Of a DNA stretch of 21,011 nucleotides, positions 3,091-15,997 are shown one piece after another (position 1 is the stretch's first letter; every line of letters starts with the position of its first letter). The DNA lies in IMG/VR virus record IMGVR_UViG_3300046000_007848, positions 1-21,011 of that record; one strand, written 5' to 3'. The position numbers were made by a program, and so were the translations under genes. The DNA is from a virus. The notes under the pieces are model-generated. The model did not search any database. It was not told the origin of the DNA and was given only the letters and a program-made list of their open reading frames with translations.

Positions 3091-3725
3091 GTTAGATAGT
3101 CTTCTGGATTATCAGACCAACTCTGTGGATCTGATGCTTCGTTGTCAGGAATATAAGGTAGTTTTAAATCTTCCTTCTTGTATTTTCTTTTCTTTCTATT
3201 TTCATTAATTGCTTTTTCCCATTCAGCATTTAATGAATCAAACAATTCTTCAGATGGTTCTTCTCTATCTTCTTCTTCGTCAATTTCTGAATCTTGAAGA
3301 TGTTCTTCATAAATTTCTTGTACAAAATCAATAAATTGTGGATCAGAAAATAATGCCCATGCAACATCCATGTTGTCATGATCTGGTTCTATTTCTGCTA
3401 ATATAACATCATCTTTTAAACCATTCATAAATTCCAAATATGAATTGTACATATTGAGAATATCTTCAGATGGTTCTGCCAGATATATAACATGTTTCAT
3501 TAAAATCGTAATAGAAGTTTCTTTGATGTTAGCCAAGTAAGAAGTAACACGCAAACATTCAATTACCTCACCATCTGGAGTTGATGTTGTATAAAAGACA
3601 ATCTTAGCCGGGTTTGAGAGAACGACTTCGTCTGGTGATTCATCCACCATTGATATCAACTCTTCACCACTAGAGAGTTTAATAACTTTTATAGACGATG
3701 AAGCTTTAGGATCTTGTTCTTCCAT
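3087..3725 (-). CDS. conserved phage protein with Sm-like N-terminus, function unknown
   Basis: A 212 aa protein whose function is not recognised. The N-terminal part (about residues 10-90) has the pattern IKVIKLSSGEELISMV, VVLSNPAKIVFY and later a short beta-rich region, which resembles small Sm/LSm-like beta-barrel proteins seen in many T4-like marine phages. The middle and C-terminal parts are strongly acidic (EEHLQDSEIDEEEDREEPSEEL, about 140-161, written here only in part) with a basic patch NRKKRKYKK at about 175-183. It has an excellent ribosome site (GAGGAGG) and a late-promoter-like site upstream, and is coupled to the tail-tube-like gene by a 4-nt overlap. That points to late expression, possibly as a virion or assembly factor. 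Confidence 0.6.
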   Translation of the reverse strand: MEEQDPKASSSIKVIKLSSGEELISMVDESPDEVVLSNPAKIVFYTTSTPDGEVIECLRVTSYLANIKETSITILMKHVIYLAEPSEDILNMYNSYLEFMNGLKDDVILAEIEPDHDNMDVAWALFSDPQFIDFVQEIYEEHLQDSEIDEEEDREEPSEELFDSLNAEWEKAINENRKKRKYKKEDLKLPYIPDNEASDPQSWSDNPEDYLT

Positions 3726-3738
3726 GCTTCCTCCTCAA

Positions 3739-3750
3739 TACTATTTATCC
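3739..3750 (-). promoter_or_regulatory. late-promoter-like element before the Sm-like gene
   Basis: Read on the minus strand this is GGATAAATAGTA, containing ATAAATA, the core of the T4 late promoter. It lies 13 nt before the ATG, with the ribosome site GAGGAGG between. It would drive the two structural-type genes toward the terminator at 2554-2586. Confidence 0.5.
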
Positions 3751-3760
3751 AAAAGAAGTT

Positions 3761-5257
3761 TTATATTTTGATCTTAAAAACTTTATGATCAAACTTTTCT
3801 TTTTTGTATATTTTAATGCGTTGTTCAAAATGTTTCAGCACATGATTTTTATAACTTTTCCATGACATATCATCAACAATATCAAACACCTTGAGTGTTT
3901 GTTTGATTGCAGATGTTCTCAATCCGCGCCCAATACTTTGTAATAAGCGTATTACTGATTTTGTAGGAGATGCAAAGATAATATTGTCGAGATGTACGAT
4001 ATTAATACCTGTGCTTGTAGTACCAAAAGAGGCAACTAGAATAGCATTTTTTTCTTTGTCTATTATCTTTCGAATAAATTCTCTATTTTCTGCATCAACT
4101 TTACCTGAAATAAAGTATACTTTCTTTTCTGGGTATTGTTTTTGGATCAACTCATAAAGTGGTTTACCATGTTTTTCGACATAGTTAAAAAGAACGAGTG
4201 TATTACCTTGGGTTTCTCCACACAATTTTACAATAAAATCATTGCGTTTTGAATTTTCAACCAAATAAGCCATTTCGTCTTGATATTTTAATTTTTTTAC
4301 TCTATGTCGCGTTTGGTCATCATAATCCAAAACAATACAGTCTATCCCAAGCTTTGCCAGTACTCCTTTACTGATTAGCCCCCTTGTTGTTATAAACTGT
4401 ACAGATGGCCCTAGCGTGCCCTCTATTGAGAGTTTATGCGCCAAGGTCTGATCCAGCGTACCTGTAGTCCCGAGCCTAAACCAAGCCTTTGTCAGTTTTT
4501 TACCAATATTGACCAAAGAGTCTGCTTTTACAAGATGACACTCATCAAAAATGACAGCCTCGAATTGATCGAACCATTCTTTAGGAAGTTTGTACACAGA
4601 CTGCCATGTAGATACGACAACTGGCTTATCTGTTAATTTTTCTTTGCCAGCACTGATTTTATGTACAAATTTTGTTACAGACCAAGATTTATCGTTTTTT
4701 GAATAATCAAAGAAGTCTGCTTCCATCTGCTGTACTAACCCAACAGTGGGGACTAATAATAAAATTTTCTTGGGAGCCTTTAGGCAGTACCGTAATAAGT
4801 ATCGAATTATTAGATAAATAATAAGCGACTTACCACTACCTGTTGGCGATACGACAACAGATCGGGCATTTGTTAATGCATGTATGACAGCATTTTTTTG
4901 GTGGGGATGTGGAATTACAGGTTCTTTTTTAACAGTGACATTTAAAGTTTTATAAAATTCATCAAATGATTCAGAATTAATATCTATTGGATCTACATCT
5001 TTATCATCAAAAATAACATTATAGTGTCGTTCATCACAGAATCGTTTAAGATATGTCTTGAGTCCACATGGAAGAGTTGAACTATTGATCTCATATAATT
5101 TAATTTTACCATCCCATATACGAGATTTGTATAGGGGCATGTATTCTGCACCAGGAACTTTAAATGAAAAATAAGAACGAAGTTCTCTTTTTACAGAATC
5201 TTCGCAATCAATTTTATATTTTGTATGGTCTTCCGCTGATGCAATTATAGTATACAC
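3761..5257 (-). CDS. uvsW: UvsW superfamily 2 helicase
   Basis: ATP-dependent DNA/RNA helicase that in T4 unwinds R-loops, branched DNA and stalled forks, and helps switch from origin-dependent to recombination-dependent replication. The 498 aa length matches T4 UvsW (about 500 aa). The N-terminal domain (1-110) includes the family pattern IDCEDSxxxELRxxFSF and WDGKIKLYE. Helicase motifs follow: Walker A SPTGSGKS (137-144), LLLVPT (167-171), DECH box (238-241), motif III LGTTGTLD (262-269) and motif VI QSIGRGLR (440-447). The start is GTG (5257) with no clear Shine-Dalgarno; it gives the N-terminus expected for the family. A late-promoter-like CATAAATAATT lies immediately upstream. It sits 17 nt after uvsY, as part of one minus-strand unit. 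Confidence 0.95.
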   Translation of the reverse strand: MYTIIASAEDHTKYKIDCEDSVKRELRSYFSFKVPGAEYMPLYKSRIWDGKIKLYEINSSTLPCGLKTYLKRFCDERHYNVIFDDKDVDPIDINSESFDEFYKTLNVTVKKEPVIPHPHQKNAVIHALTNARSVVVSPTGSGKSLIIYLIIRYLLRYCLKAPKKILLLVPTVGLVQQMEADFFDYSKNDKSWSVTKFVHKISAGKEKLTDKPVVVSTWQSVYKLPKEWFDQFEAVIFDECHLVKADSLVNIGKKLTKAWFRLGTTGTLDQTLAHKLSIEGTLGPSVQFITTRGLISKGVLAKLGIDCIVLDYDDQTRHRVKKLKYQDEMAYLVENSKRNDFIVKLCGETQGNTLVLFNYVEKHGKPLYELIQKQYPEKKVYFISGKVDAENREFIRKIIDKEKNAILVASFGTTSTGINIVHLDNIIFASPTKSVIRLLQSIGRGLRTSAIKQTLKVFDIVDDMSWKSYKNHVLKHFEQRIKIYKKEKFDHKVFKIKI

Positions 5258-5260
5258 TAC

Positions 5261-5271
5261 AATTATTTATG
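5261..5271 (-). promoter_or_regulatory. late-promoter-like element abutting uvsW
   Basis: Minus-strand CATAAATAATT in the 17-nt gap between uvsY and uvsW. If used as a T4-type late promoter, the start of transcription would fall at or next to the GTG start codon of uvsW, giving no leader. T4 uvsW is itself a late gene, which makes the site credible, but the region is AT-rich. Confidence 0.4.
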
Positions 5272-5274
5272 TCA

Positions 5275-5712
5275 TCACGAGATACCGTTAACAAGCTTAT
5301 TCCAATCGATAGCAGACTTAATAGAGAAATTTCTATTAGTTAAAACCTTTAAAAAATCTTCTACCATCTTAACTTTGATTTCAAGAATATTTAAATCAGT
5401 TACAATTTTTAATAATATAGGATCTGCCTCTAGAAATTTATCTAGATCAGTTTTTAATAATTTCATTTGAAATGGATCTTCACCCCATTCAACCAACTCG
5501 TCTTGCGTTGCGTGACCAGTATAAATTTTCCATTTTCTTAATCGCATGATCAAGAATGCATTATTTAATTTTTGAAGTTCTATCTTAAGGTCTGCGTGTA
5601 TATTCAAGTACTTACCATGTATAGCAGGAGTCCTTATAGCTTCTTTACCTAACTCTGTAGAGTCTATTAAAGAATCTTTTTTAATGTTATCTTTAAGGGT
5701 TTCTAAATTCAT
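5275..5712 (-). CDS. uvsY: UvsY recombination mediator
   Basis: Loads the UvsX recombinase onto ssDNA coated with gp32. The 145 aa protein matches T4 UvsY (137 aa) in length and layout: N-terminal MxLExLxxxxKKDxxIDSTxL, then a helical region with HxxxxxYLNIHADLKxE, an RLRKWKIYTGH segment corresponding to the T4 ARLDYYSGR region, and a C-terminal helical end NFSIKSAIDWNKL like T4 GFAIKHIQDMRAF. The alignment fixes the ATG at 5712 as the start. No Shine-Dalgarno is visible, and a sigma70-type promoter lies so close that its predicted transcript starts about 3 nt before the ATG. It is followed by uvsW. Confidence 0.9.
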   Translation of the reverse strand: MNLETLKDNIKKDSLIDSTELGKEAIRTPAIHGKYLNIHADLKIELQKLNNAFLIMRLRKWKIYTGHATQDELVEWGEDPFQMKLLKTDLDKFLEADPILLKIVTDLNILEIKVKMVEDFLKVLTNRNFSIKSAIDWNKLVNGIS

Positions 5713-5721
5713 TATAAGTAT

Positions 5722-5750
5722 ACTATAGAGTATCCTTTAAGAAAAGTCAA
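5722..5750 (-). promoter_or_regulatory. sigma70-type promoter for uvsY
   Basis: On the minus strand: -35 TTGACT (5745-5750), 17-bp spacer, -10 TATAGT (5722-5727). Both boxes match 5 of 6 consensus bases, with ideal spacing. The predicted transcription start is near 5715, about 3 nt before the uvsY ATG. The -35 box overlaps the palindrome at 5747-5762. Confidence 0.75.
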
Positions 5751-5762
5751 GATATATCTTGA
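5747..5762. promoter_or_regulatory. 16-bp perfect palindrome, candidate operator
   Basis: TCAAGATATATCTTGA reads the same on both strands. It overlaps the -35 box of the leftward uvsY promoter at one end and the -35 box of the rightward glycan-island promoter at the other. A dimeric DNA-binding protein here could control both promoters at once. Part of the symmetry comes from the two inverted -35 boxes themselves (TTGA/TCAA), but the inner GATATATC is not explained by them. Confidence 0.55.
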
Positions 5763-5787
5763 TTATTTATTTAAAATGTGTTATAAT
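5759..5787 (+). promoter_or_regulatory. sigma70-type promoter for the glycan island
   Basis: -35 TTGATT (5759-5764), 17-bp spacer, -10 TATAAT (5782-5787) with an extended -10 (TGT directly before). The -10 is a perfect consensus. The predicted start is near 5794, giving a leader of about 27 nt to the ATG at 5821. It is divergent from the uvsY promoter. Confidence 0.75.
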
Positions 5788-5820: not shown

Positions 5821-6498
5821 ATGATTATAGATCTAAGACAAATACCTACCGTATGGATTAATCTTGATAGTGCTACTGGCAATGCATCGATCATGAACCA
5901 AAGATTTCATGAGCATAGATTTTCCAATACCCATCGCAAATCAGCCGTACAAATAGCACCACCACATGGTACCCCAGATACCATTAAACATTATGTTGGT
6001 TGTGCTCAATCACATATTGATATTTTAGAAGATACTCGATATGATTGCCCTATTTTAATCTTAGAAGATGATGCTGAATTCACACCAGATTTTCATCCTC
6101 AAATTGAAGTAAAAGACGATACAGATGCTGTATATCTTGGAGTTTCTTCTGGTAACCAACATTATATTACTAAACGTATCGATAAACATTATATGCGTAT
6201 TGGTAAAATTTTAGCAACACATGCAATTTTATATCTTAACAAAGATTATAGAAAAACTGTGGCAGACATAGCTAAAATTTTTGCTTATAGATTAAAAATT
6301 CCATTTGATAATGGATGTGCTTTAGTTCAGGAAAGATTTAATGTCATTACACCAAATAAACCTTTTTTTGTTCAGGCTAATGCACGACAAAGTGCAAATC
6401 AATGGGAAGTAGTCACATCTAGACCATTAGTAGATAAGAATAGTGAATTTCCTGTTCGAGATCCTAATGTTAAATTAGAAATACAGGTTCCAGCATGA
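5821..6498 (+). CDS. GT25-like glycosyltransferase, copy 1
   Basis: Probably transfers a sugar (family GT25 includes LPS galactosyltransferases) to a cell-surface or phage glycan. The 225 aa protein has the GT25 core: N-terminal VWINLDS, GCAQSHIDIL (60-69) and LILEDDAEF (79-87), in which EDD is the likely metal/nucleotide-sugar site. These are followed by DDTDAVYLGV, a KILATHAILYLNKDYR segment and, near the end, FNVITPNKPFFVQA. It is shorter than many GT25 proteins. The ATG at 5821 is preferred over the in-frame TTG at 5815, because the MIID start is shared with copy 2. No Shine-Dalgarno is seen. It is the first gene after the rightward promoter and overlaps the GT11 gene by 4 nt (ATGA). Its acceptor and donor are unknown. 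Confidence 0.8.
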   Translation: MIIDLRQIPTVWINLDSATGNASIMNQRFHEHRFSNTHRKSAVQIAPPHGTPDTIKHYVGCAQSHIDILEDTRYDCPILILEDDAEFTPDFHPQIEVKDDTDAVYLGVSSGNQHYITKRIDKHYMRIGKILATHAILYLNKDYRKTVADIAKIFAYRLKIPFDNGCALVQERFNVITPNKPFFVQANARQSANQWEVVTSRPLVDKNSEFPVRDPNVKLEIQVPA

Positions 6499-7283
6499 TT
6501 TCATGTCAATCAATAGGAACCAATGGTAGATTTGGTAACCAAATGTTTCAATATGCTACGCTTTACGCTTTAGGTAAAGAATTACATTATGAAATTGGTG
6601 TACCATATAAACAACGTAATCAAAATGATAAATTAGATTTTTGTTTACCAGATGCGTTTGACCTATCAGCATCAGATTCATCTAAAAATTTTATGAGTTC
6701 TATGTATATAGAACCTCACTTTAATTACGATGCAAATATTCATAATATTCCAGACAATTGTGATATTAGAGGATATTTTCAAACAGAAAAATATTTTAAA
6801 AAATATAAAAAAGATTTAATTACTAAAGAATTTAAATTTAAGAAATCTATAGAAACACAAGCAAACGAACTATTTGCCGGTAAAGATTGTGAATTAGTTT
6901 CTTTGCATATGCGGTTGGGTGATTATCTTTACCTGGCAGACTCACATCCTATCTGCCCCATAGAATATTATAGAGAAGCTCTTAAATTAATACCGGCTGA
7001 TGTACAAATTATATTGTTTAGTGATGATTATGGTGTTGCCAATAACATTATTAAAGATTTAGGTAGACATGTAATGATGTATGGAAGCAATGATAAATTT
7101 TTAGATATGTGTTTAATGAAAAAATGTGAATATCATATTATTGCAAATAGTTCATTTAGTTGGTGGGGAGCTTGGCTAGCTAATAGTAAAAAAACTATTG
7201 CACCAAAAGTTTGGTTTGGTCCATCTCCTAATGTTACAAAAAATTGGAATGATATTTATTGTGATGAATGGGAAGTAATATGA
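6495..7283 (+). CDS. GT11 alpha-1,2-fucosyltransferase-like enzyme
   Basis: Expected to transfer L-fucose, or the related 3,6-dideoxy sugar colitose, from a GDP donor to the 2-position of a galactose-type acceptor. The 262 aa protein shows the GT11 signature throughout: GRFGNQMFQYATLYAL (11-26), GYFQTEKYF (93-101), the GDP-binding motif HMRLGDY (138-144), ILFSDD (173-178) and ANSSFSWWGAWL (217-228), ending APKVWFGP. Length is slightly below the usual 280-300 aa. The ATG lies in an ATGA overlap with the gene before, so it is translationally coupled. Genes for making GDP-6-deoxy sugars lie downstream in the same island. The E. coli O55 enzyme WbgN shows that GT11 enzymes can use GDP-colitose, which is relevant here because a ColD-like gene is present. 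Confidence 0.92.
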   Translation: MISCQSIGTNGRFGNQMFQYATLYALGKELHYEIGVPYKQRNQNDKLDFCLPDAFDLSASDSSKNFMSSMYIEPHFNYDANIHNIPDNCDIRGYFQTEKYFKKYKKDLITKEFKFKKSIETQANELFAGKDCELVSLHMRLGDYLYLADSHPICPIEYYREALKLIPADVQIILFSDDYGVANNIIKDLGRHVMMYGSNDKFLDMCLMKKCEYHIIANSSFSWWGAWLANSKKTIAPKVWFGPSPNVTKNWNDIYCDEWEVI

Positions 7284-7951
7284 TAATTGATATTCCATCT
7301 GTTAAAACTTTTTATGTAAACATGGACAATAGAGTTGATAGAAGAGATCAAACAGAAAAGCTATTGTCTAATTTACATTTTGATAATTATCAAAGATATT
7401 CTGCAAAAACTGGCCAAAATGCTATAGAAGGCTGTGCCTTATCTCATATAGATATTTTGCGTTTAAATAAATGTAATAGTCCATTTTTAATATTAGAAGA
7501 TGACATAGCAATAGGTAGTGGGTATAGTCAAAATATCGAAGTTCCGGATGATGTAGATGCAATTTATTTGGGGTATTCAATGTGGGGATATGACATAGAG
7601 AGAGCTAAAAAGTTTTCCAGAATGCAAAATACGACTTCTTTTAAAAAAGTTACAAATAACATATATAAAATTTCAAATATGTTATCAACCCATGCTATCA
7701 TGTACTGTAGCGAAAGATATTCAAATGCAGTTGCAGACATTATGGAAACCATATGGAATAAAGAAAAATGGCACTGTGATTACGCATGTTCATTGATACA
7801 AGAAGAATTTAATGTATATGCTCCAGTTCACCCATATTTTTTTCAATATGATCATTGGACAATGCCTTGGACTTATGTTTCATTAAATAAATTTCAAGAG
7901 ATGAATATAATATATAAAAATACAACAAATGACTCAAGACTTAATCCCTAA
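7280..7951 (+). CDS. GT25-like glycosyltransferase, copy 2
   Basis: The second GT25-type enzyme and the most canonical of the three: FYVNMDNRVDRRDQT at 11-25 (the family's N-terminal nucleotide-binding pattern), GCALSHIDIL (51-60) and LILEDD (70-75). As in the other copies these are followed by DDVDAIYLGY, KISNMLSTHAIMYCSERY and FNVYAPVHPYFFQ. The protein is 223 aa. The ATG at 7280 is chosen over the in-frame ATG at 7268 because it has GGAAG at proper spacing and makes an ATGA overlap with the GT11 stop, as other joints in this cluster do. Its end overlaps the GT6 gene by 23 nt. It shares its block order with copies 1 and 3, so the three probably arose by duplication and then diverged. Confidence 0.85.
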   Translation: MIIDIPSVKTFYVNMDNRVDRRDQTEKLLSNLHFDNYQRYSAKTGQNAIEGCALSHIDILRLNKCNSPFLILEDDIAIGSGYSQNIEVPDDVDAIYLGYSMWGYDIERAKKFSRMQNTTSFKKVTNNIYKISNMLSTHAIMYCSERYSNAVADIMETIWNKEKWHCDYACSLIQEEFNVYAPVHPYFFQYDHWTMPWTYVSLNKFQEMNIIYKNTTNDSRLNP

Positions 7952-8636
7952 TATTGGTTTATTAATAATAGCAACAAATAAATATATTTCATTTGTTGAT
8001 CCCTTAGTTAATAGTGCAGATAAATTATTTTTGCCAAATTGTAATGTAACATATTGTGTTTTTACTAATAATATAAAAACATTAAATACACCACGACAAT
8101 ATAATATGTTAAATATTGATCATGAATCTTGGCCTGCTCCAACTCTTAAAAGATATGATTATTTCAATAAATACGCAGAGTATTTAAAAACTTTTGATTA
8201 TTTGTATTATTGTGACGCTGATATGAGATTTGTTGATGTAGTTGGAGATGAAATTTTAGGAGATCTTATAACAACTTTACATCCAGGGTTTTGGGGTAAA
8301 AATAATATCCAATTTTCATATGAGCGTAGACCAGAATGTAAAGCTTACATTTCCTATGGTAGCGGAAATGCGTATTATGCTGGTGGATTTAATGGTGGAA
8401 AATCAAGTGAGTTTTTAAAAATGGCTAACACAATTGTTTCTTGGAGAAAAGAAGATGAATTAAATGGTTTAATTCCTGTGTGGCACGATGAAAGTTATTT
8501 GAATAAATATATGTACTTAAACCCACCAACAAAAGCTTTAACACCAAGTTATTGTTACCCTGAATCTTGGGATCTACCTTTTGAAAAACGTTTATTGGCT
8601 TTAGACAAAAATCACAGTGAAATGAGATCTTTATGA
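7929..8636 (+). CDS. GT6 glycosyltransferase (ABO blood-group transferase homologue)
   Basis: Member of family GT6, retaining alpha-1,3-Gal/GalNAc transferases that include human ABO transferases. At 235 aa it is only the catalytic domain, without the membrane anchor of the vertebrate enzymes. The matches to the ABO enzyme are close: NIGLLIIATNKYISF (8-22), the metal-binding DxD as DAD (96-98), LHPGFWG (117-123), YERRP (131-135) with AYI, YYAGGFNGG (149-157), WHDES (185-189, containing the Glu that lines the active site) and LNKY (191-194). A final KNH..MR corresponds to the ABO C-terminus. Most bacterial GT6 proteins have NxN instead of DxD; here DxD is kept, suggesting a metal-dependent enzyme. 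At the ABO donor-selecting positions (Leu266/Gly268 in A, Met/Ala in B) it has Ala and Gly, closer to the GalNAc-type enzyme. That specificity is inference. Confidence 0.95.
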   Translation: MTQDLIPNIGLLIIATNKYISFVDPLVNSADKLFLPNCNVTYCVFTNNIKTLNTPRQYNMLNIDHESWPAPTLKRYDYFNKYAEYLKTFDYLYYCDADMRFVDVVGDEILGDLITTLHPGFWGKNNIQFSYERRPECKAYISYGSGNAYYAGGFNGGKSSEFLKMANTIVSWRKEDELNGLIPVWHDESYLNKYMYLNPPTKALTPSYCYPESWDLPFEKRLLALDKNHSEMRSL

Positions 8637-9277
8637 AAATTAATTTAAATGAAATTGTAACTTTGTGGTATGGTGGAATAAAAAAACATAGATTAGAAAT
8701 TATAGAAAATACTATTACTTCATTAAATTTAAATGCTAAACATATTCCTACAATAATTTCAGATGCTGCTGTTGGATTTGTTCGGTTAGGTTGTTCTGCT
8801 AGCCATAAAAATGCATTAGAAGAAAGTTTAAATTATTCAGGGCCAGTATTAATTTTAGAAGATGATGCTAGCCCAACAGAATGGTATTCAAATACAATTG
8901 ACATTCCCGATGATGCAGATGCATTTTACGTAGGAACATGTTTAAATGGAATTAGTCCACATTGGGAAAAAATGGGACCAGACGAAGGTTGTTGTGGTCA
9001 ATTAGAAGTATTACAAAGACATGAGAGTTTTTATAAAATTTCTAAAATGTTAACAACACATGCTATATTATATATTTCAGAAAAATATAAAACAGATTGT
9101 TACAACTTATTGCAAGAAAATAATGGTAGCCGTTATTTAGATGTTTTATTTGCCAGTAAGATGCATAATTATAATGTATATGCTCCAAAATATCCTTTAT
9201 TTTATCAAAATTGTAAAGATGATAATTATGATGCATATATTAATACAATTACACCTTTAATTCATGTATTAAAATAA
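8633..9277 (+). CDS. GT25-like glycosyltransferase, copy 3
   Basis: The third GT25-type enzyme, 214 aa. Blocks: a diverged N-terminus (VTLWYGGIKKHRLEI), GCSASHKNAL (53-62), LILEDDAS (73-80), DDADAFYVGT, KISKMLTTHAILYISEKY and YNVYAPKYPLFYQN. The usual NLDxRxdR N-terminal motif is degraded, so donor binding may differ from copies 1 and 2. It begins in an ATGA overlap with the GT6 gene, so it should be made together with it. A short 25-nt gap separates it from the FkbM gene. Its product and acceptor are unknown. Confidence 0.8.
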   Translation: MKINLNEIVTLWYGGIKKHRLEIIENTITSLNLNAKHIPTIISDAAVGFVRLGCSASHKNALEESLNYSGPVLILEDDASPTEWYSNTIDIPDDADAFYVGTCLNGISPHWEKMGPDEGCCGQLEVLQRHESFYKISKMLTTHAILYISEKYKTDCYNLLQENNGSRYLDVLFASKMHNYNVYAPKYPLFYQNCKDDNYDAYINTITPLIHVLK

Positions 9278-9302
9278 TTTTTAATTAATAGAAAGTTAAT
9301 TT

Positions 9303-9929
9303 ATGGAAGAAATATTTTATAAAAGCATCAATTGGGAAAATAGTGATATAAAAAATTGGCATATTGAAAACGATAAATACAATTTTTTATATAAACACAA
9401 GTTGGATAATACATCTTTAGTTATTGATATTGGTTCTTATAATGGAAATTGGTTAAAAATAATAACTGATTTATACGACTGTCATGGGATGGGATTAGAA
9501 CCAGTTAATAAATTTTATACAGAAAGTTTAAAACATACAAATGATAAAATAAAATTTATAAACTCTGGAATAACTACTAAAAAAAATCATATTTCAAAAA
9601 TTAATTTAAATGATGATAGTACCACGATCGTAAACTCAGATGGTGATTATGAAATTTCATTACTTAATATTAATGATTTTTTAAAAAGTAATAATTTTAA
9701 ACAAATTGATTTGCTGCAAATTAATATTGAGGGATATGAGTATGAATTAATTCCTCATATGATTGAAAATAAATTATTTGACAACATTAGTACGTTACAA
9801 ATACAATTTCATTGTATATCTAATTTAAGTGAAATAAAACACACAAATATTAAAACTCAATTGAGTAAAATAGGATTTAAAACACTTTTTGATTTTAAAC
9901 ATGTCTGGTATGGAGCATCTAAAATATGA
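9303..9929 (+). CDS. FkbM-type SAM-dependent methyltransferase
   Basis: Likely O-methylates a sugar hydroxyl, as FkbM-family enzymes in glycan clusters often do. The 208 aa protein contains the SAM-binding motif I VIDIGSYNGNW (40-50), GMGLEP (62-67, the acidic residue at the end of strand 2), and the FkbM hallmark DLLQINIEGYEYELI (136-150), followed by IQFHC. It is extremely AT-rich with many Asn, Lys and Ile codons. No clear Shine-Dalgarno is seen before the ATG. Its stop overlaps the ATG of a broken epimerase remnant (ATGA), showing that an intact gene was once coupled here. The substrate is unknown; a plausible role is capping or disguising the glycan made by the neighbours. Confidence 0.85.
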   Translation: MEEIFYKSINWENSDIKNWHIENDKYNFLYKHKLDNTSLVIDIGSYNGNWLKIITDLYDCHGMGLEPVNKFYTESLKHTNDKIKFINSGITTKKNHISKINLNDDSTTIVNSDGDYEISLLNINDFLKSNNFKQIDLLQINIEGYEYELIPHMIENKLFDNISTLQIQFHCISNLSEIKHTNIKTQLSKIGFKTLFDFKHVWYGASKI

Positions 9930-10060
9930 AGTATTTAATTACTGGTAGCACAGGCTTTATTAGCTTTAATTTGGTAGGGGATAACATTTTATCTACTAAA
10001 TAATCATATCTTATTAAAAGAAATGTGTTCAATATTGATACAGGAAAAAACTATATAAAT
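9926..10060 (+). pseudogene. remnant of a nucleotide-sugar epimerase/dehydratase (extended SDR)
   Basis: The ATG at 9926 opens 25 codons encoding MKYLITGSTGFISFNL, the standard N-terminal NAD-binding start of sugar-nucleotide epimerases, then hits TAA at 10001-10003. In the same frame after the stop the reading continues LIKRNVFNIDTGKNYIND, which looks like the next beta strand of such enzymes (…VxNID…). The third glycine of GxxGxxG is Ser. Nothing of the remaining roughly 250 residues is present; the next gene starts at 10059 in another frame. It is best read as a gene deleted down to its first 45 codons. The ATGA coupling to the FkbM gene is kept. Confidence 0.7.
9995..10004 (+). promoter_or_regulatory. 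possible late-promoter-like element inside the epimerase remnant
   Basis: ACTAAATAAT, identical to the 10-mers before genes 22 and 23, including the TAA that ends the remnant. It lies 54 nt before the ATG at 10059. It could be a late promoter for the second half of the island, but the sequence is so AT-rich that a chance match is quite possible. Confidence 0.25.
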
Positions 10061-10979
10061 GACAACTTTATCTTTTTGTTTTTACAACCCGGGCCACAAC
10101 GGTGATATTCATTATTCTAGAGAATTTGTTAAAGATATTTGTAAAAAATTAAATGTTACAGCAGAATATGCAATGTCATGTTCTGCAAATTTAACAAAAG
10201 ACATACAATGTTTAACCGCGTTTCCTTCGGCTAATGTTAATGCCCCAAATAATAGTCGTGTGATAAAAAATTTAAACATTTCATTAGAGGATGAAACATT
10301 TTTTGATCAACCTAGTAACACTTTATTCATTAATACGTGGGTAGGTTCTTCTTATGTAAAATATTTAAATCAAGGAGGAGGGTGTTGCCTTGAAAGTTGT
10401 TATTTAAAATTTAAAAATATATTTTTTAATTTAAAAATACCTTTAAATGACCGTTCTTTTTATGTTCCTGAGATTGATTGGTCATATTATGATGTATCTA
10501 ATATTGATAATTTTTTTAAAACATCTAATTATGAAAAATTTTATCTTTTTTGTAATGGTCCAGTACTTTCGTTTCAAGCACATAATAATGATTTAAATCC
10601 AATAATAAGTCAATTAGCATTGGCAAATCCAAAAGCCGTGTTTATTCTTACTGATAATAGTATAAGATTGGATCACAAAAATATTTTTTATACTTCTGAT
10701 ATTATAAAAATTAATGGTTGTGATTTAAATGAAATTGGTTATATGGCAACAAAATGTAATTTTATTTTTGGAAGAGCAAGTGGACCCTTTTGTTTTTCTC
10801 ATACCAAAGAAATTTTAAAGGATAAAACAAAAGTGTTAATGGCATTATGTAATAATAGGAATGATGGCTTGTGGGCATCGCCAGACGTTTTTGATCATGA
10901 ACATAGAGCAACACAATTATGGACAAACCAATACGCACCAGATTTGTTGTATACACAAATTCAAAACAGTTTAAATTGA
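10059..10979 (+). CDS. uncharacterised protein, possible GT-B glycosyltransferase
   Basis: A 306 aa protein not firmly recognised. The N-terminal part (LSFCFYNPGHNGDIHYSREFVKDI) looks like the start of a GT-B fold, with a glycine-rich loop for the acceptor half (H-N-G-D-I). The C-terminal half has NDLNPIISQLALANPKAVFILTD, then INGCDLNEIGYMATKCNFIFGRASGPFCFS. This pattern resembles the nucleotide-sugar half of heptosyltransferase-like (GT9) enzymes, where a short Gly-Ser-Gly-Pro loop follows strand and helix. It is rich in Cys (CCLESC at about 109-114) for such a protein. It has no signal peptide or membrane segment. Its place between sugar-modifying genes supports a glycosyltransferase role, but this is inference. 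Confidence 0.5.
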   Translation: MTTLSFCFYNPGHNGDIHYSREFVKDICKKLNVTAEYAMSCSANLTKDIQCLTAFPSANVNAPNNSRVIKNLNISLEDETFFDQPSNTLFINTWVGSSYVKYLNQGGGCCLESCYLKFKNIFFNLKIPLNDRSFYVPEIDWSYYDVSNIDNFFKTSNYEKFYLFCNGPVLSFQAHNNDLNPIISQLALANPKAVFILTDNSIRLDHKNIFYTSDIIKINGCDLNEIGYMATKCNFIFGRASGPFCFSHTKEILKDKTKVLMALCNNRNDGLWASPDVFDHEHRATQLWTNQYAPDLLYTQIQNSLN

Positions 10980-10988
10980 GATTTATAA

Positions 10989-11342
10989 ATGAATGATATT
11001 GCATTAAATATTGAAGATACTATTAAAAATCAAGTTAATCTTATATTGAGTATCAAAAACAAACAGTTACCAGAAATACCTTTAGATATTGTTGCTACTG
11101 ATAACTTAGCTGAAGTAATTGAAAAACTTGTGATTCTTCACATTAGAACTTGGTTTTTGGAAGACATGGCTGGAGCAGCTACTAGTGACGAAGAATTAGC
11201 CTCAATAAAAAGAAAAGTAGATATTTGTTTTAAACAAAAAAGACCAACCTATATTCAAGCTATAAATAAAATTATAGATGATGCAATTGTAAATAATAAA
11301 TCTTTATTAGAAAATTCTGTTAAAATTTATAAAAATTATTAA
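10989..11342 (+). CDS. DUF4254-like small protein
   Basis: A 117 aa helical protein. The central stretch WFLEDMAGAATSDEELASIKRKVDICFKQKRPTYIQAINKII (about 55-96; quoted here in short form as WFLED..SIKRKVD..RPTYIQAINK) resembles the DUF4254 family. That family is found in LPS and capsule clusters of bacteria and in some phages, with a Trp-x-x-Glu-Asp helix followed by KRxxDxxNxxR and ExxID. Its biochemical role is not known. It lies 9 nt after the preceding gene and 2 nt before the ColD-like gene, so it is certainly part of the operon. It may be an accessory factor for a neighbouring transferase or dehydratase. Confidence 0.55.
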   Translation: MNDIALNIEDTIKNQVNLILSIKNKQLPEIPLDIVATDNLAEVIEKLVILHIRTWFLEDMAGAATSDEELASIKRKVDICFKQKRPTYIQAINKIIDDAIVNNKSLLENSVKIYKNY

Positions 11343-11344
11343 AT

Positions 11345-12508
11345 ATGGAAAAAATTAAATTAGTGAAAGATACAATTTCTTATAAAGAAATTGATCTATT
11401 ATGTGAATGGTTACAAACTTATCCTCAACTCACAAAAGGTCCACTTACAGAACAGTTTGAAAATATGTGGGCAAATTGGGTAGGCACAAAATATTCAGTT
11501 TTTGTTAATTCTGGGTCTTCAGCTAATTTAGCAATGATTTATTCATTAAAAGTATCCAATAAACTTAAAAATAATAAAATTGTTTTACCTTGTGTTTCTT
11601 GGGTGACTACAGTAAGCCCTGTAATGCAATTTGGTATGCAGCCTATTTTATGCGAAACAGATGAAGAAACTTTAGGATTAAATGTTGAATCATTTGAAAA
11701 AATATGCAAAGAAGAAAATCCAAGTTGTGTATGTTTAGTTCATGTTTTAGGAATTCCTAATAAAATAAAAGAAATACAAGCTATTTGCAAAAAATATAAT
11801 GTTATATTATTAGAAGACTCGTGTGAAAGTGTTGGTTCTATGTATGAAGGAAAACAAACAGGAACTTTTGGATTGATGTCTTCCTTTTCCACATATTTTG
11901 GTCATCATTTTTCTACTATTGAAGGTGGTTTTATTTGCACCGATGACTTTGAATTATATGAAATTTTAAAATCAATAAGATCACATGGATGGAGCAGAGA
12001 TCTTTCAATTGACACAAAAAATCAATTACAAAAAGAACATAATATTGATGATTTTCAAAATTTTTATACTTTTTATTATCCAGGGTTTAATATAAGATCA
12101 ACAGATTTACAGGCTTTTTTGGGAATTAATCAGTTAAAAACTTTAAATGAAAAAAATTTAAATAGATACAATAATTTAAAATTATATGATTCTTTAATAA
12201 TTAACAAATATTGGAAATTAAAATTTAATGATTTTATTAGTAATTTTGCATATCCAATAATTCACCCTAAAAAGAATTTTATTGCAAAAACACTAAAAGA
12301 CAACAATGTAGAATGTCGGCCTCTTATTTGTGGAAATATGGCACGACAACCATTTTTTTATAAAACATATGGAGTCAAAAAATATCAATTTGCTGATATT
12401 GTTCATGATTACGGAATGTATTTACCAAATAATCCTGATATGACTGAAACAGATATTACGTATATTTGTAATTTAGTCAATAATATAACGAAAGAAACTG
12501 ATGAATAA
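11345..12508 (+). CDS. colD: ColD-like PLP-dependent sugar 3-dehydratase
   Basis: Belongs to the DegT/DnrJ/EryC1/StrS aminotransferase fold but lacks the catalytic lysine. Where sugar aminotransferases have the PLP-binding Lys, this protein reads YFGHHFSTIEGG (184-195), with His at 187-188. That replacement is typical of GDP-4-keto-6-deoxy-D-mannose 3-dehydratase (ColD) and of the related RfbH/DdhC enzymes, which remove the 3-hydroxyl. Other ColD-like features are NSGSSANLAMI (55-65), LPCVSWVTT (81-89), LLEDSCESVGS (155-165, with the Asp that contacts the PLP ring nitrogen), GTFGLMSSFS, SHGWSRDL and VECRPLICGN. The 387 aa length matches ColD. It overlaps the Fcl/ColC gene by 8 nt. Together with GMD and Fcl/ColC it completes a route to GDP-L-colitose. 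RfbH-like use of a CDP sugar is less likely, given the GDP-sugar neighbours and the absence of an RfbH N-terminal extension. Confidence 0.85.
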   Translation: MEKIKLVKDTISYKEIDLLCEWLQTYPQLTKGPLTEQFENMWANWVGTKYSVFVNSGSSANLAMIYSLKVSNKLKNNKIVLPCVSWVTTVSPVMQFGMQPILCETDEETLGLNVESFEKICKEENPSCVCLVHVLGIPNKIKEIQAICKKYNVILLEDSCESVGSMYEGKQTGTFGLMSSFSTYFGHHFSTIEGGFICTDDFELYEILKSIRSHGWSRDLSIDTKNQLQKEHNIDDFQNFYTFYYPGFNIRSTDLQAFLGINQLKTLNEKNLNRYNNLKLYDSLIINKYWKLKFNDFISNFAYPIIHPKKNFIAKTLKDNNVECRPLICGNMARQPFFYKTYGVKKYQFADIVHDYGMYLPNNPDMTETDITYICNLVNNITKETDE

Positions 12509-13445
12509 AAATTCAAAAATATTTGTGGCTGGTCATAAAGGACTAGTTGGTTCTGCTTTAATTAAAAAATTAATAAAAAATGGTTTTACAAATCTTTTAA
12601 TAAAAACTAAAGAAGAATTAGATTTAAGAAATCAACTAGACGTAAAGTATTTTTTTGATAGAGAAAAACCAGAATATGTTTTTTTGAGTGCTGCAAAAGT
12701 TGGAGGAATAGGTTGGAATAAAATGTGTCCTGCTGAATTTATATATGACAATTTACAAATTCAAAATAATATAATTCACAGCTCATATGTAAATAATATT
12801 AAAAAATTATTATTTTTAGGTTCAGCGTGTATATATCCAAAAATTACACCACAACCAATAAAAGAAGAATATTTAATGACAAACGAATTAGAACCAACCA
12901 ATGAGGGTTATGCCCTATCAAAAATTGTTGGGTTAAAAATGTGCCAGTACTATAATAAACAATATGGATTTGATGCAATATCATTGATGCCAGCAAATTT
13001 ATATGGAATTAATGACAATTTTAATATTGATAAATGCCATGTTATCCCAGCACTTATTCGTAAATTTATTGACGCAAAAGAAAATAATTATCCAAGTATT
13101 ACTTGTTTTGGAGATGGTACACCAACACGAGAATTTTTATATGCTGATGATTTAGCAGATGCGTGTTTATTTTTGATGGAGAATTATAATTCTTCTGATA
13201 TTATTAATGTTGGATCTGGAATTGAAGTAAGCATTAAAGATTTAGCAGAATTAATTAAAATTAAAATTGGATTCAAAGGAGATATTATTTGGGATACTAC
13301 AAAACCAAATGGAACTCCTTTAAGAAAATTATGTAATAAAAAAATTAATTCTTTGGGCTGGAGCTCAACAACAACTCTTGAATCGGGTCTTTCAAAAACA
13401 ATTGATTGGTATTTAACGAATAAAAATAATTATTATAGAAATTAA
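12501..13445 (+). CDS. fcl: GDP-L-fucose synthase / GDP-L-colitose synthase (Fcl/ColC)
   Basis: A bifunctional epimerase-reductase of the extended SDR family. It turns GDP-4-keto-6-deoxymannose into GDP-L-fucose or, if a ColD product is supplied, GDP-4-keto-3,6-dideoxymannose into GDP-L-colitose. The 314 aa protein has the NADP-binding motif GHKGLVGSA (11-19), LDLRNQ, AAKVGGIGWN (64-73), the catalytic GSACIYPK (107-114, with the Cys base at 110), EPTNEGYALSK (131-141, Tyr137/Lys141), MPANLYG and CHVIPAL (179-185, with the acid His180). All known catalytic residues of the family are present, so it should be active. Sequence alone does not separate Fcl from ColC. The overlap with the ColD-like gene upstream favours the colitose reading. 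Confidence 0.92.
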   Translation: MNKNSKIFVAGHKGLVGSALIKKLIKNGFTNLLIKTKEELDLRNQLDVKYFFDREKPEYVFLSAAKVGGIGWNKMCPAEFIYDNLQIQNNIIHSSYVNNIKKLLFLGSACIYPKITPQPIKEEYLMTNELEPTNEGYALSKIVGLKMCQYYNKQYGFDAISLMPANLYGINDNFNIDKCHVIPALIRKFIDAKENNYPSITCFGDGTPTREFLYADDLADACLFLMENYNSSDIINVGSGIEVSIKDLAELIKIKIGFKGDIIWDTTKPNGTPLRKLCNKKINSLGWSSTTTLESGLSKTIDWYLTNKNNYYRN

Positions 13446-13458
13446 GATTTTTAAAAAT

Positions 13459-14436
13459 ATGAAACAAACTGCATTAATTACTGGTATAAATGGTCAAGAT
13501 GGCTCTTACTTAGCAGAACATCTTTTGGGATTAGGATATTTTGTAGTAGGCTTAAAAAGAAGAACAAGCACATTTACTACAGAAAGAATTAATCATATTT
13601 ACAATAACCCCAATTTTAAATTAGAGTATTATGATCTGAATGATGCTTCTTCTTGCTATCGGTATATAAATCAATATCAACCAAACGAAATTTATAATCT
13701 TGCTGCTCAGTCTCATGTAAAGGTTTCTTTTGATATTCCAACTAACACAGTTGATGGTATTGTTCAGGGTACATTAAATTGGCTTGAAGCAATAAGAAAT
13801 ACCAATACTTCTATTAAATTTTATCAAGCATCTTCTTCTGAAATGTTTGGTGATAGCGCAATAATAAAAGATACAGGCTATGATGAGTATTCACCTTTAG
13901 TCCCCGTCTCACCTTATGCAGCAGCAAAAGTATGTGCGCATAACTTAGTTAATATTTATAGAAGGTCATATGGATTACATGCATGTTCGGGTATTTTGTT
14001 TAATCACGAGTCTCCAAGACGTGGTGAAACATTTGTTACTAGAAAGATTACTCTTGCAGCAGCTAATATAAAACTTGGTTTACAAAACAAACTTTATTTG
14101 GGTAATCTAACAGCAAAAAGAGATTGGGGATTTGCTGGTGATTATGTAAAAGCCATGCATCTTATGTTACAACATCATATTGCATCTGATTATATAATTG
14201 CAACTGGAAAAACATATTCTATCCAAGAATTTTTAAAAGAAGTATTTGATTATGCTTCATTGGACTATAAAGAATATGTTGTGGTTGATTCAAAACTTTT
14301 TAGACCAATTGAAGTCCCTTATTTACTTGGAAATTCAAGTAAAGCCCAAAATGATTTAGGGTGGAAACCTATGGTAGACATGAAACAATTAGCACATATG
14401 ATGTATGATGCAGATTTAAAATTATTACAAGCTTGA
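13459..14436 (+). CDS. gmd: GDP-mannose 4,6-dehydratase
   Basis: Converts GDP-D-mannose to GDP-4-keto-6-deoxy-D-mannose, the shared precursor of GDP-fucose, GDP-colitose and related sugars. The 325 aa protein shows the GMD pattern: ALITGINGQDGSYLAEHLL (5-23), GLKRRTSTFTTERI (31-44, the NADP phosphate-binding basic residues), NLAAQSHVKVSF (80-91), YQASSSEMFG (122-131) with Ser/Glu of the active site, SPYAAAK (151-157, Tyr153/Lys157), GILFNHESPRRGETFVTRKI and RDWGFAGDYVKAM. The usual length is about 350-370 aa, and a loop before the C-terminal substrate region is shortened. The precursor GDP-mannose must come from the host or from genes outside the window. It lies 13 nt after fcl. Confidence 0.96.
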   Translation: MKQTALITGINGQDGSYLAEHLLGLGYFVVGLKRRTSTFTTERINHIYNNPNFKLEYYDLNDASSCYRYINQYQPNEIYNLAAQSHVKVSFDIPTNTVDGIVQGTLNWLEAIRNTNTSIKFYQASSSEMFGDSAIIKDTGYDEYSPLVPVSPYAAAKVCAHNLVNIYRRSYGLHACSGILFNHESPRRGETFVTRKITLAAANIKLGLQNKLYLGNLTAKRDWGFAGDYVKAMHLMLQHHIASDYIIATGKTYSIQEFLKEVFDYASLDYKEYVVVDSKLFRPIEVPYLLGNSSKAQNDLGWKPMVDMKQLAHMMYDADLKLLQA

Positions 14437-14481
14437 CCTTTACACAAAAAATAATTTAGAAATTAGAAAAATAGATTAACA

Positions 14482-15387
14482 ATGAATTACTTAATAACAG
14501 GCGGATGTGGTTTTATTGGCTCAAATATTGTTGATCGTTTAATAAACGATGGGCATAAAGTTACAGTAATTGATAATTTGTCTTCTGATGCACACGATGA
14601 GTTTTATTTTAATTTTAAAGCATCCTATTATCATTATAGTGTAAGTGATTATAGCCAGTGTGCTGATGTATTCAATAGGACTAAACCAGATTATGTCCTG
14701 CACTTGGCAGCAGAAGCACGTATTCAAAATTGTATAGAAGACCCAACATTAGCATTTCACACAAATTTTATGGGAACGCAAACTATGTTAGCGTTATCTA
14801 AAAAATACCAAGTTAAGCGTTTAGTGTTATCCACAACATCTGCTATATACGGATTATCTAATATAGGACTGTTAAATGAAGAAATGCCACCAGATTGTTT
14901 AAATGCATACTCATTAAGTAAATATCAATCGGAACAAGTTTGTAAATTGTATAGTGAGATGTATGGTGTAGATACCGTTTGTTTACGTTATTTTAATGTA
15001 TATGGTCTTCGTCAACCAACAAAAGGTCCATATGCTCCAGTACTTGGGGTTTTTCAAAGGCAATTCGATGCAAAAGAAGCTTTGACTGTAACAGGTGATG
15101 GCGAACAAACCAGAGATTATGTACACGTTTCTGATGTGGTTGAAGCAAATATTATGGCTGCAACCCACGAGACTCCATTAATGGCTCAGATTTTTAATGT
15201 CGGGACCGGGAATGCATATTCTGTTAATGAAATTGCACGAACTATTTCAAATAATATTCGATACCTTCCACCAAGAAAAGGGGAAGCAAAGAATACCTTA
15301 GCTGATATTACAAAAATTAAAAACTACTTTGGTTGGAAACCTAAAATTCAATTGTTGGAATGGATTAATGTTCATATTTGTAGTTGA
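14482..15387 (+). CDS. UDP-hexose 4-epimerase-like SDR (GalE/Gne type)
   Basis: An extended SDR sugar-nucleotide epimerase, 301 aa. Motifs: YLITGGCGFIGSNIVD (3-18), the acidic residue ending strand 2 in VIDN (29-32, favouring NAD), LHLAAEARI (73-81), LSTTSAIYG (116-124), AYSLSKYQSE (142-151, Tyr143/Lys147), LRYFNVYGLRQ and GDGEQTRDYVHVSDV. RYFNVYG and TRDYVHVxD are typical of UDP-Glc/Gal and UDP-GlcNAc/GalNAc 4-epimerases. Which pair it handles cannot be told from sequence; either product would be a donor for the GT6 enzyme. It is the last gene of the island, and the gene 55 promoter begins inside its final codons (15384). It resembles the remnant at 9926 in its N-terminus. Confidence 0.85.
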   Translation: MNYLITGGCGFIGSNIVDRLINDGHKVTVIDNLSSDAHDEFYFNFKASYYHYSVSDYSQCADVFNRTKPDYVLHLAAEARIQNCIEDPTLAFHTNFMGTQTMLALSKKYQVKRLVLSTTSAIYGLSNIGLLNEEMPPDCLNAYSLSKYQSEQVCKLYSEMYGVDTVCLRYFNVYGLRQPTKGPYAPVLGVFQRQFDAKEALTVTGDGEQTRDYVHVSDVVEANIMAATHETPLMAQIFNVGTGNAYSVNEIARTISNNIRYLPPRKGEAKNTLADITKIKNYFGWKPKIQLLEWINVHICS

Positions 15388-15412
15388 TGTTTTGTCCTGA
15401 TTATGGTATAAT
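15384..15412 (+). promoter_or_regulatory. sigma70-type promoter for gene 55
   Basis: -35 TTGATG (15384-15389), 17-bp spacer, -10 TATAAT (15407-15412) with an extended -10 (TGG before it). The predicted transcription start, 7 nt after the -10, is 15419, which is the A of the gene 55 ATG. The mRNA would be leaderless. The -35 overlaps the stop of the epimerase gene. Confidence 0.75.
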
Positions 15413-15418
15413 TGACCC

Positions 15419-15997
15419 ATGGCAAAGGACAAAATAAAAAAACCAAAGAAACCAAAAAGCAAAGATGGAGATTACGTTGATAACTCCGTCTTGTATCAAG
15501 AGTTAGTTGAATATAAAAAGAAAAAGAATGATGCAGAAAACTCTGGTAAAAAGAAACCAAAGTTACCTGATTATGTTGGTGACGCAATTTTAAAAATTGC
15601 AAACCGATTATCTTTTCGACCCAACTTTGCCAATTATACCTACCGGGAAGAAATGGTATCAGATGCAGTTTTAAACTGTGTTACCTACATTGATAATTTT
15701 GATCCAGCTATATCAAAATCTCCATTCGGATACCTAACTCAGATATGCTGGTTCTCATTTGTTCGTATAATCAATAAAGAGAAAAAAGAAAAGTATATTC
15801 AATTTAAAGTTGCACAAAACCAAAACAACCCAGAGTTTCACAAATGGTTTAATGAAACCTTTTCTGGAGTTGAAAACGGCTTTAAAGATGCATTTGGTAT
15901 TGGTGAGCCAGAAGTAGAAAAAATGGATAAGCTTCTTGAAGGTAAAAGAAAAGGTAGAAAGAAGAAGATTCAAGATGGGGGTTCCCTGAATGTGTAA
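15419..15997 (+). CDS. 55: late-transcription sigma factor gp55
   Basis: Small sigma factor that directs host RNA polymerase to late promoters with a TATAAATA-type -10 box, working with the gp45 clamp. The 192 aa protein (T4: 185 aa) has an unusually basic N-terminal tail (MAKDKIKKPKKPKSKDGD), then DYVDNSVLYQELVEYKKK, which matches T4 gp55 YNYVNNKELLQAIIDWK. This is followed by the sigma region 2-like core LSFRPNFANYTYREEMVSDAVLNCVTYIDNFDP..SPFGYLTQICWFSFVRIINKEKKEK (about 60-122, quoted in parts). There is no other Met near the N-terminus, so the ATG at 15419 is the start even though there is no Shine-Dalgarno. It overlaps gene 47 by 8 nt. It starts the replication/late-transcription gene block. 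Confidence 0.93.
   Translation: MAKDKIKKPKKPKSKDGDYVDNSVLYQELVEYKKKKNDAENSGKKKPKLPDYVGDAILKIANRLSFRPNFANYTYREEMVSDAVLNCVTYIDNFDPAISKSPFGYLTQICWFSFVRIINKEKKEKYIQFKVAQNQNNPEFHKWFNETFSGVENGFKDAFGIGEPEVEKMDKLLEGKRKGRKKKIQDGGSLNV

Follow-up and report, generated by a model that had tools for sequence, protein, structure and literature searches.

The DNA analysed here is a 21 kb virus record from IMG/VR (IMGVR_UViG_3300046000_007848, positions 1 to 21,011), the whole of which is called the window, and the subject of this analysis is an island of sugar-handling genes that lies between uvsY and a gp55-like gene. From left to right the window carries gp22, gp23, two small genes, UvsW, UvsY, the 12-gene island, the gp55-like gene, gp47, gp46, a clamp gene and a clamp loader gene, with the two small genes, UvsW and UvsY on the minus strand. 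Pfam assigned gp22, gp23, UvsW and UvsY as T4-like, in line with an earlier note, made from the sequence alone, that had placed the island within a T4-like core. The genes on the right (gp55, gp47, gp46, clamp and clamp loader) were named from their order and matches in relatives and from the annotated order of S-SKS1, Pfam scans having covered some of them. The island comprises 12 open reading frames (ORFs A to L), all on the plus strand (nt 5821–15387), and neighbouring genes overlap or sit no more than 45 bases apart, the sole exception being the space at nt 9930–10058. The borders, promoter and genes are as follows.

5275–5712, minus strand: uvsY, bordering the slot on the left and transcribed away from the island (PF11056, 9.9e-24)
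5759–5787, plus strand: host sigma70-type promoter leading into the island, TTGATT-17-TATAAT, with TG ahead of the -10 box
5821–6498, plus strand: ORF A, GT25-like glycosyltransferase (phrog_24091, 3e-36; predicted GT-A fold)
6495–7283, plus strand: ORF B, GT11, alpha-1,2-fucosyltransferase family (PF01531, 1.1e-22, 81.1 bits, cut-off 23.9)
7268–7951, plus strand: ORF C, GT25-like glycosyltransferase (PF01755, 24.6 bits; phrog_24091, 1.1e-40)
7929–8636, plus strand: ORF D, GT6, the ABO-type family of retaining alpha-1,3-galactose (Gal)/N-acetylgalactosamine (GalNAc) transferases (PF03414, 1e-46, 159.6 bits against 25)
8633–9277, plus strand: ORF E, GT25-like glycosyltransferase (phrog_24091, 1.5e-22)
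9303–9929, plus strand: ORF F, FkbM-family methyltransferase (PF05050, 4.3e-08, 33.9 bits against 22.7)
9926–10003, plus strand: stub, 25 codons long, of a lost galE (blastn against relative L011, 81% over 91 bases, and translation)
10059–10979, plus strand: ORF G, GT9-like transferase of predicted GT-B fold (model with predicted local distance difference test score, pLDDT, of 85.2)
10989–11342, plus strand: ORF H, small DUF4254-like protein directly upstream of ColD (PF14063, 0.01, below cut-off)
11345–12508, plus strand: ORF I, ColD-type, pyridoxamine phosphate (PMP)-dependent guanosine diphosphate (GDP)-4-keto-6-deoxymannose 3-dehydratase (best PDB match ColD, 1.5e-61)
12501–13445, plus strand: ORF J, Fcl/ColC-type epimerase-reductase (NF047922, 426 bits, cut-off 500; PDB E. 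coli Fcl, 2.1e-94)
13459–14436, plus strand: ORF K, gmd, GDP-mannose 4,6-dehydratase (TIGR01472, 415.7 bits against 415; PDB, 4.7e-109)
14482–15387, plus strand: ORF L, GalE-type uridine diphosphate (UDP)-hexose(NAc) 4-epimerase (PDB 4zrm, 4.8e-59)
15419–15997, plus strand: gp55-like late sigma factor, bordering the slot on the right (weak Sigma70_r2 match below cut-off; the annotated gp55 of S-SKS1 likewise lies beside gp47 and gp46)

Matches in Pfam, TIGR, PHROG and PDB bear out the families that the earlier note had read in this run (GT11, GT6, gmd, Fcl/ColC, ColD-like, GalE-type, three GT25-like genes and FkbM), each at its place; ORF G and the small ORF H were absent from its list. Its proposal of a blood-group-like glycan depended on the GT11 and GT6 genes belonging to those families, and both score above cut-off (PF01531 and PF03414). 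A Pfam scan of the 12 island genes found no flippase, polymerase or initiating transferase (wzx and wzy families), and no match to a tail-fibre family.

A fixed slot with exchanged contents

Related loci were collected by scans with GT6, gp55, uvsY and ColD, in which the best 80 of 534, of at least 352 and of 220 were retained, and loci sharing an exact 1000-base match were merged into clusters. The ColD scan gave nothing with the single window sequence and gave loci with a family alignment. Uvs​Y and gp55 lie together in one locus in 34 clusters. All 25 clusters with a uvsY of at least 52% identity hold an island of 6.4–15.2 kb between the two genes, lengths that are shortened by a 10 kb flank limit, and all nine outgroup clusters (uvsY 33–43%) are colinear without an island, as is S-SKS1. 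GT25-like genes are present in 18 of the 25 islands, GT11 in 15, gmd in 14, ColD in 12 and GT6 in three. The lineage of the window keeps its glycan genes at one fixed site, the uvsY–gp55 slot, whose contents are hypervariable, and this is new here.

Exchange of the contents can be followed in contigs whose flanks closely resemble those of the window (right flank 94.6–97%, left flank 92–94% DNA identity). They match the island only to nt 7264–7286, at the end of GT11, and, where long enough, rejoin the window sequence from about nt 13420–13462, in gmd. All six of the contigs with window-like flanks that read past GT11 diverge downstream and fall into two groups, one consisting of L099 and L100 (100% over 4760 bases) and the other of L093, L108, L096 and L094 (86–99.95%); L094 splits from L093 after about 3.1 kb and may be a further variant. 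Contigs L095, L097 and L098 (94.7–100%) stop inside or before GT11 and are uninformative for exchange. The window represents a third allele, and similar backbones (92–97% DNA identity) bear at least three island contents. L015, which matches the window only from nt 15401 onward, is likely another allele. In the larger group, the GT11 identity to the window is 83–95% at nt 6500–6799 and 57–84% from about nt 6800, where the group members are 90–100% alike; the C-terminal half of GT11 moves together with the downstream genes in this group. With different contents on similar backbones, the slot may be seen as an analogue of bacterial O-antigen serotype loci.

The contents of some other alleles were named by reading their translations. 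L007 appears to carry a UDP-galactopyranose mutase and L014 RfaE-like genes, while L086 (nt 3384–5584), which has a closely similar backbone, seems to encode a GDP-6-deoxy-hexulose reductase-like (Rmd-like) enzyme and a C-methyltransferase and hence to make another GDP sugar.

The start of the island is also conserved. In the space between uvsY and ORF A, all 32 relative clusters score at least 10 of 12 for the island promoter, compared with 10% of shuffles, and more distant relatives score 11 or 12. Toward uvsY, 30 of 32 clusters have a match scoring at least 10 of 12, but only 12 of these are at a level reached by no more than 3% of shuffles. Counted over the entire island, sigma70-like matches show no enrichment (82 against 74.8 expected), and only the conserved promoter at the island start was used. 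The sequence CTAAATA precedes gp22 in 8/8 and gp23 in 9/12 cases; ATAAATA showed no enrichment (14 against 16 expected), nor did ACTAAATA (3 against 2.15 expected), two of the three sites of which precede gp22 and gp23. Since the host-type promoter is conserved, and gp22 and gp23 instead follow CTAAATA, early expression of the island is inferred, with some doubt. The -35 boxes of the divergent promoters, to the island and to uvsY, form an inverted repeat at nt 5745–5765 (GTCAAG...CTTGA) that is found in relatives too and is a possible operator.

Transferases, predicted donor routes and proposed modules

The three GT25-like genes score 20.3, 24.6 and 15.8 bits against PF01755 (cut-off 24, one of three above it), and all three match a single phage family, phrog_24091. 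The model of ORF A (pLDDT 85.9) has a GT-A fold with Mimivirus R655 as the top fold match, and human COLGALT1, a GT25 enzyme (rank 6), and a beta-1,4-galactosyltransferase (rank 13) are among its 14 matches at E 0.001 or below; capsid glycosyltransferases of PBCV-1 are listed as well. The GT25 motif LEDD is invariant in 19/19 aligned rows; one row was omitted from the GT25 alignment behind the structure prediction. Residues H138, R140 and D143 of GT11 are likewise invariant in 19/19 rows, and no solved structure related to this protein was found (best E 0.31).

The GT6 protein, ORF D, scores 213.6 against NF041524, below the cut-off of 250, and among solved structures it is closest to BoGT6a (5e-51) and human ABO (3e-45). 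The metal-binding motif reads DAD in ORF D, NAN in BoGT6a and DVD in the human enzyme, while the donor loop is YYAGG in ORF D and BoGT6a, and YYLGG in the human ABO chains shown. WHDES and both Asp residues of the DXD are invariant across 14/14 phage GT6 rows. The loop residues govern A or B donor preference, and the DXD together with the BoGT6a-like loop would make GalNAc a likelier donor than Gal. PMC3961637 ties the DXD to metal dependence in GT6 and notes GT6 genes in two cyanophages. The window protein shares the GT6 family, WHDES and a YYxGG loop with human ABO and BoGT6a; it keeps the DXD where most bacterial GT6 proteins have NXN, and is without a Golgi anchor.

ORF I belongs to the DegT family, and its structure matches rank E. 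coli ColD (1.5e-61) above the CDP-sugar (cytidine diphosphate) enzyme E1 (3.3e-39) and aminotransferases (1e-26). A His replaces the pyridoxal phosphate (PLP) lysine, and gmd lies two genes downstream. This His is the first of GHH, the residue altered in 3b8x (N) and 2r0t (K) compared with wild-type ColD (H), and HH is kept in 11/11 phage rows, an alignment from which L064, a row containing a stop, was excluded. A ColD-type dehydratase with GHH was also seen in ACG-2014f (L001, nt 10554–11747), where it is annotated 'hypothetical protein'. Gmd (ORF K) is above the equivalog cut-off of TIGR01472 and has YxxxK as YAAAK. ORF J is below the Fcl equivalog cut-off of NF047922 and was therefore not filed as Fcl. 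Its clade in the tree is ColD-adjacent in 9/10 rows, while the Fcl/ColC tree as a whole gives no clean split by label (seven changes for the ColD-adjacent label, three for the label without ColD), and ORF J is ColC by its ColD-adjacent context only.

No sequence family is above cut-off for ORF G, the class of which is assigned from the predicted fold alone (GT9 enzyme, VIA Z 17.0, 259 aligned, root-mean-square deviation 4.4, 9% identity; WaaC heptosyltransferase, Z 15.7). Of 20 distinct ORF G homologues, 19 have ColD no more than 6 kb away. Across the 25 islands, ten have G, H and ColD, twelve have none of them, one has G alone and two have ColD alone; ORF H is present in 10/12 ColD islands and in 0/13 others. 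A Fisher test over these islands, uncorrected for relatedness, gave p 0.0002 for ColD with G and p 0.23 for ColD with GT11. ORF G is almost always accompanied by ColD, yet ColD does not require G. Relatives L007 to L010 retain GT25-GT11-GT25-GT6 (67–78% identity), and the L007 island, read through to gp55, has neither ColD nor Fcl/ColC. With moderate trust, the island would comprise two modules, GT25-GT11-GT25-GT6 being separable from G, H and ColD, and with similar trust ORF G is favoured over GT11 as the enzyme that probably takes up the ColD product in the window allele.

ORF L scores 176 against the TIGR01179 equivalog cut-off of 262 and is filed as GalE-type only. The stub after FkbM retains a start codon, followed by 25 codons and a stop; the corresponding position in L011, between F and G, is occupied by an intact galE. 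The galE of the window instead sits between gmd and gp55, with junctions against L014 and L086 at nt 14445 and 15401; the insertion splits the gp55 promoter (-35 box at nt 14433, -10 box at nt 15407), which is intact in L014 and L086. As galE was lost at one site and is present at another, its function is suggested to be needed and kept. The gate residue is Thr in the window, and among 17 island-type sequences Thr was found in 13, Ser in one, and three were unread. Thr here presumably gives room for N-acetyl sugars, and the gate suggests an enzyme in keeping with a GalNAc-using GT6. The gene families thus support both donor routes that the earlier note had put forward, a GDP-6-deoxy sugar with a ColD step and a UDP-Gal/GalNAc-type epimerase.

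Possible roles of the island and its relatives

The preferred reading, a tentative one, is that the uvsY–gp55 interval is a cassette slot for a changeable, two-module host-surface glycosylation locus that would remodel lipopolysaccharide (LPS) or lipooligosaccharide (LOS). The host RNA polymerase would read the island early from the sigma70-type promoter. Gmd, ColD and ColC, with ORFs G and H, would convert host GDP-mannose to GDP-colitose or a related GDP-3,6-dideoxy sugar, which would then be attached, more likely by the GT9-like ORF G than by GT11. The series GT25, GT11, GT25, GT6, GT25 would extend a galactose-bearing acceptor; going by family, GT11 would add a 6-deoxy-L-sugar in alpha-1,2 linkage and GT6 a GalNAc (or Gal) in alpha-1,3 linkage, giving an A/H-like branch, and the GalE-type enzyme would maintain the UDP-Gal(NAc) supply. 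The acceptor is most likely host LPS/LOS, because the Pfam scan of the island shows none of the flippase, polymerase and initiating-transferase families and because ORF G is similar to transferases of the LPS core. An altered host surface could mask receptors from competing phages or progeny, and the most likely role would be an early change of the host LPS by which competitors are blocked. An unlikely but more far-reaching version is that of a true serotype locus in a lytic T4-like lineage, in which the early slot is exchanged and donor supply and transferase specificity are swapped as a unit (the C-terminal half of GT11, from about nt 6800–6850, being expected to bind the GDP-sugar), each phage giving its host a different glycan, here a colitose glycan with a blood-group-A-like branch, under frequency-dependent selection by competing phages.

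Several observations weigh against the preferred reading. The GT11 protein reads HMRLGD, with Leu in place of the second Arg of the GT11 motif HxRRxD. The donor loop of the ACG-2014f GT6 differs from that of the window, so the sugar may vary even between relatives, and some alleles carry gmd and GT11 without a recognisable reductase, so the GT11 donor may rely on host Fcl or differ. At the promoter, the window's own subgroup scores 10, a value reached by 10–16% of shuffles. The late-type CTAAATA also occurs at 7/32 island starts and, in the window, at nt 9996–10002, inside the galE stub and 63 bases ahead of ORF G. This last copy could supply the G and ColD module with a late promoter of its own, or may be chance. 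Among 131 viral clusters, 46 of the 64 with ColD are without G and 43 of the 64 without H, although many of these contigs end early, and GT11 is found in 31/64 viral ColD clusters compared with 18/64 for G.

The last of these counts is also a point for a single linear pathway of the kind that the earlier note proposed, in which GT11 would be a colitosyltransferase and GT6 would cap the galactose so modified; the product would be blood group A in a colitose form. A colitosyltransferase, WbgN, is known from E. coli O55. Gmd, ColD, ColC, GT11 and GT6 occur together in the window, L011 and ACG-2014f, and L188 has gmd, ColD, GT11 and GT6. The 31 viral ColD clusters with GT11, from a set that is lineage-biased by its anchors, compare with 0/80 bacterial ColD-like loci, a weak negative given that the GT11/GT6 profiles and cut-offs were phage-trained and that named E. 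coli colitose strains lay outside the comparison. Against such a pathway are the GT11-GT6 pair of L007 without ColD or ColC, the tracking of ColD with ORF G and not GT11 over the 25 whole islands, and the lack of ColD in 21/52 viral GT11 clusters. The idea shares its host-surface target with the two-module LPS/LOS reading and is not wholly exclusive of it; it is somewhat unlikely, and the L007 content and the ColD-G association led to its not being accepted as the sole reading. The earlier note's claim that both sugars are used on one glycan is not supported as stated, on the same grounds: L007 to L010 keep GT11-GT6, and ColD in the slot tracks G and H.

The target could instead be a protein of the virion, either a capsid decoration or a tail fibre, whose glycosylation could alter adsorption or hide the particle. 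The Mimivirus top match of ORF A and the listed PBCV-1 capsid enzymes are consistent with this, and the CTAAATA copies at island starts and before ORF G mean that late expression, suiting virion decoration, may occur; but the conserved promoter diverging from uvsY is host-type and not the CTAAATA of gp22 and gp23, and the fold of ORF G is like that of an LPS heptosyltransferase, making this target quite unlikely. T4-like phages put sugars on modified bases, and hypermodification of DNA to evade restriction would give the island another purpose. A gene beside GT11 in S-SCSM1 is annotated 'DNA beta-glucosyltransferase', but a thymidylate synthase/dCMP (deoxycytidine monophosphate) hydroxymethylase homologue (PF00303) was found in 0/9 long island-lineage records, which are fragments (outgroup records 0/1 and 1/1), and GT11, GT6 and GT9 enzymes are not known to act on DNA; this explanation is highly improbable. 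The island could also be mainly inert cargo: exchangeable sugar genes of bacterial origin would land there and serve as stuffer DNA for headful packaging, an idea raised for cyanophage LPS clusters in PMC3037559, which leaves open whether those genes are functional or stuffer. The galE stub shows decay, and 13 of the 25 slots are 9.1–9.9 kb long, though the flank limit biases these lengths. All 12 genes are open, however, key residues and promoter are conserved, GalE is present elsewhere in the island and GT11-GT6 linkage recurs in several cyanophages, so that mere cargo appears very unlikely.

The LPS-remodelling slot has partial precedents. Among phage records, 71 contain a GT6 relative and 102 a GT11 relative, and the matches listed (60 each) are mostly cyanophages. 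The GT11-GT6 pairing seen by the earlier note recurs in this co-occurrence search of phage genomes: the two genes adjoin each other in S-CAM9, Bellamy and DSL-LC02, and some 0.8 kb separates them in ACG-2014f and 1.5 kb in P-SSM2. The idea that the pairing is unique to this phage was rejected. ACG-2014f (KJ019091) has gmd, Fcl/ColC, a ColD-like gene, GT11, GT6, an epimerase and GT25 in one run; judged by gene family, the set in the earlier note already exists in sequenced phages and is not new, and the description of such a pathway in a T4-like core as unusual was not supported, leaving the overall interpretation partly supported. The LPS clusters of cyanomyoviruses (P-SSM2, S-SM2, ACG-2014f, S-CAM9, Bellamy and DSL-LC02) resemble the window in being T4-like and in having, between them, runs of gmd, fcl, GT11, GT6, GT25 and epimerase genes, but lie near nrd, tRNA, hli, ferredoxin or psbA genes and not between uvsY and gp55. 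Among relatives of the window, psbA (PF00124) was found in 0/11 long records, all fragments. In the cyanomyovirus stretches examined, only ACG-2014f gave a ColD match, S-CAM9 and Bellamy were without a gmd match and S-SM2 without GT6; their GT6 proteins are 26–43% identical to that of the window, and the donor loop differs except in P-SSM2.

Colitose or A/H-like O-antigen loci are known from E. coli O55, O111 and O86. These bacterial loci share with the window the Gmd-ColD-ColC route and the pairing of GT11 with GT6; with no wzx, wzy or initiating-transferase family among its 12 genes, the phage, unlike them, must borrow a host acceptor. S-SCSM1 encodes gmd, GDP-fucose synthase and an alpha-1,2-fucosyltransferase, according to PMC9602691. 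For pelagimyophages, PMC7029224 proposes serotype conversion against superinfection and describes a variable block between vrlC and gp14; this hypervariable host-recognition cluster is like the window in being glycosyltransferase-rich and in T4-like aquatic phages, but it carries tail fibres, whereas the window slot is at uvsY–gp55 and has no tail-fibre match. A search of the open-licence PMC literature, with subscription papers outside its scope, found no paper dealing with a colitose route encoded by a phage, or with an ABO-like pathway in phages.

The island would be valuable chiefly for its serotype-like slot and its separable colitose module, and not for the ABO resemblance alone. The question posed for cyanophage LPS clusters in PMC3037559, whether the genes function or are stuffer, becomes testable with a fixed slot that combines a conserved promoter of early type, intact active sites and varied contents on similar backbones. 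Colitose enzymes from phages, and a GT6 of DXD type that is close to the bacterial GalNAc clade, may also offer simple tools for glycan synthesis.

Three further observations concern neighbouring or more distant sequences. The minus-strand gene adjoining UvsW (nt 3087–3725) has a weak Sm-like/DUF6561 match and is 47–55% conserved in nearer relatives, below the neighbouring genes. In the 107.9 kb relative L130, ARAGORN reported a tmRNA* overlapping a tRNA-Tyr (nt 10263–10696), which is either a phage tmRNA or a false call. Metagenomic phages of more than 630 kb carry GT6 relatives (LR756502.1, nt 437595–444905; LR745206.1, nt 425989–426660) with the highest identity (47%) among the matches listed, and in LR756502 a ColD-like gene lies about 5.5 kb from the GT6 relative.

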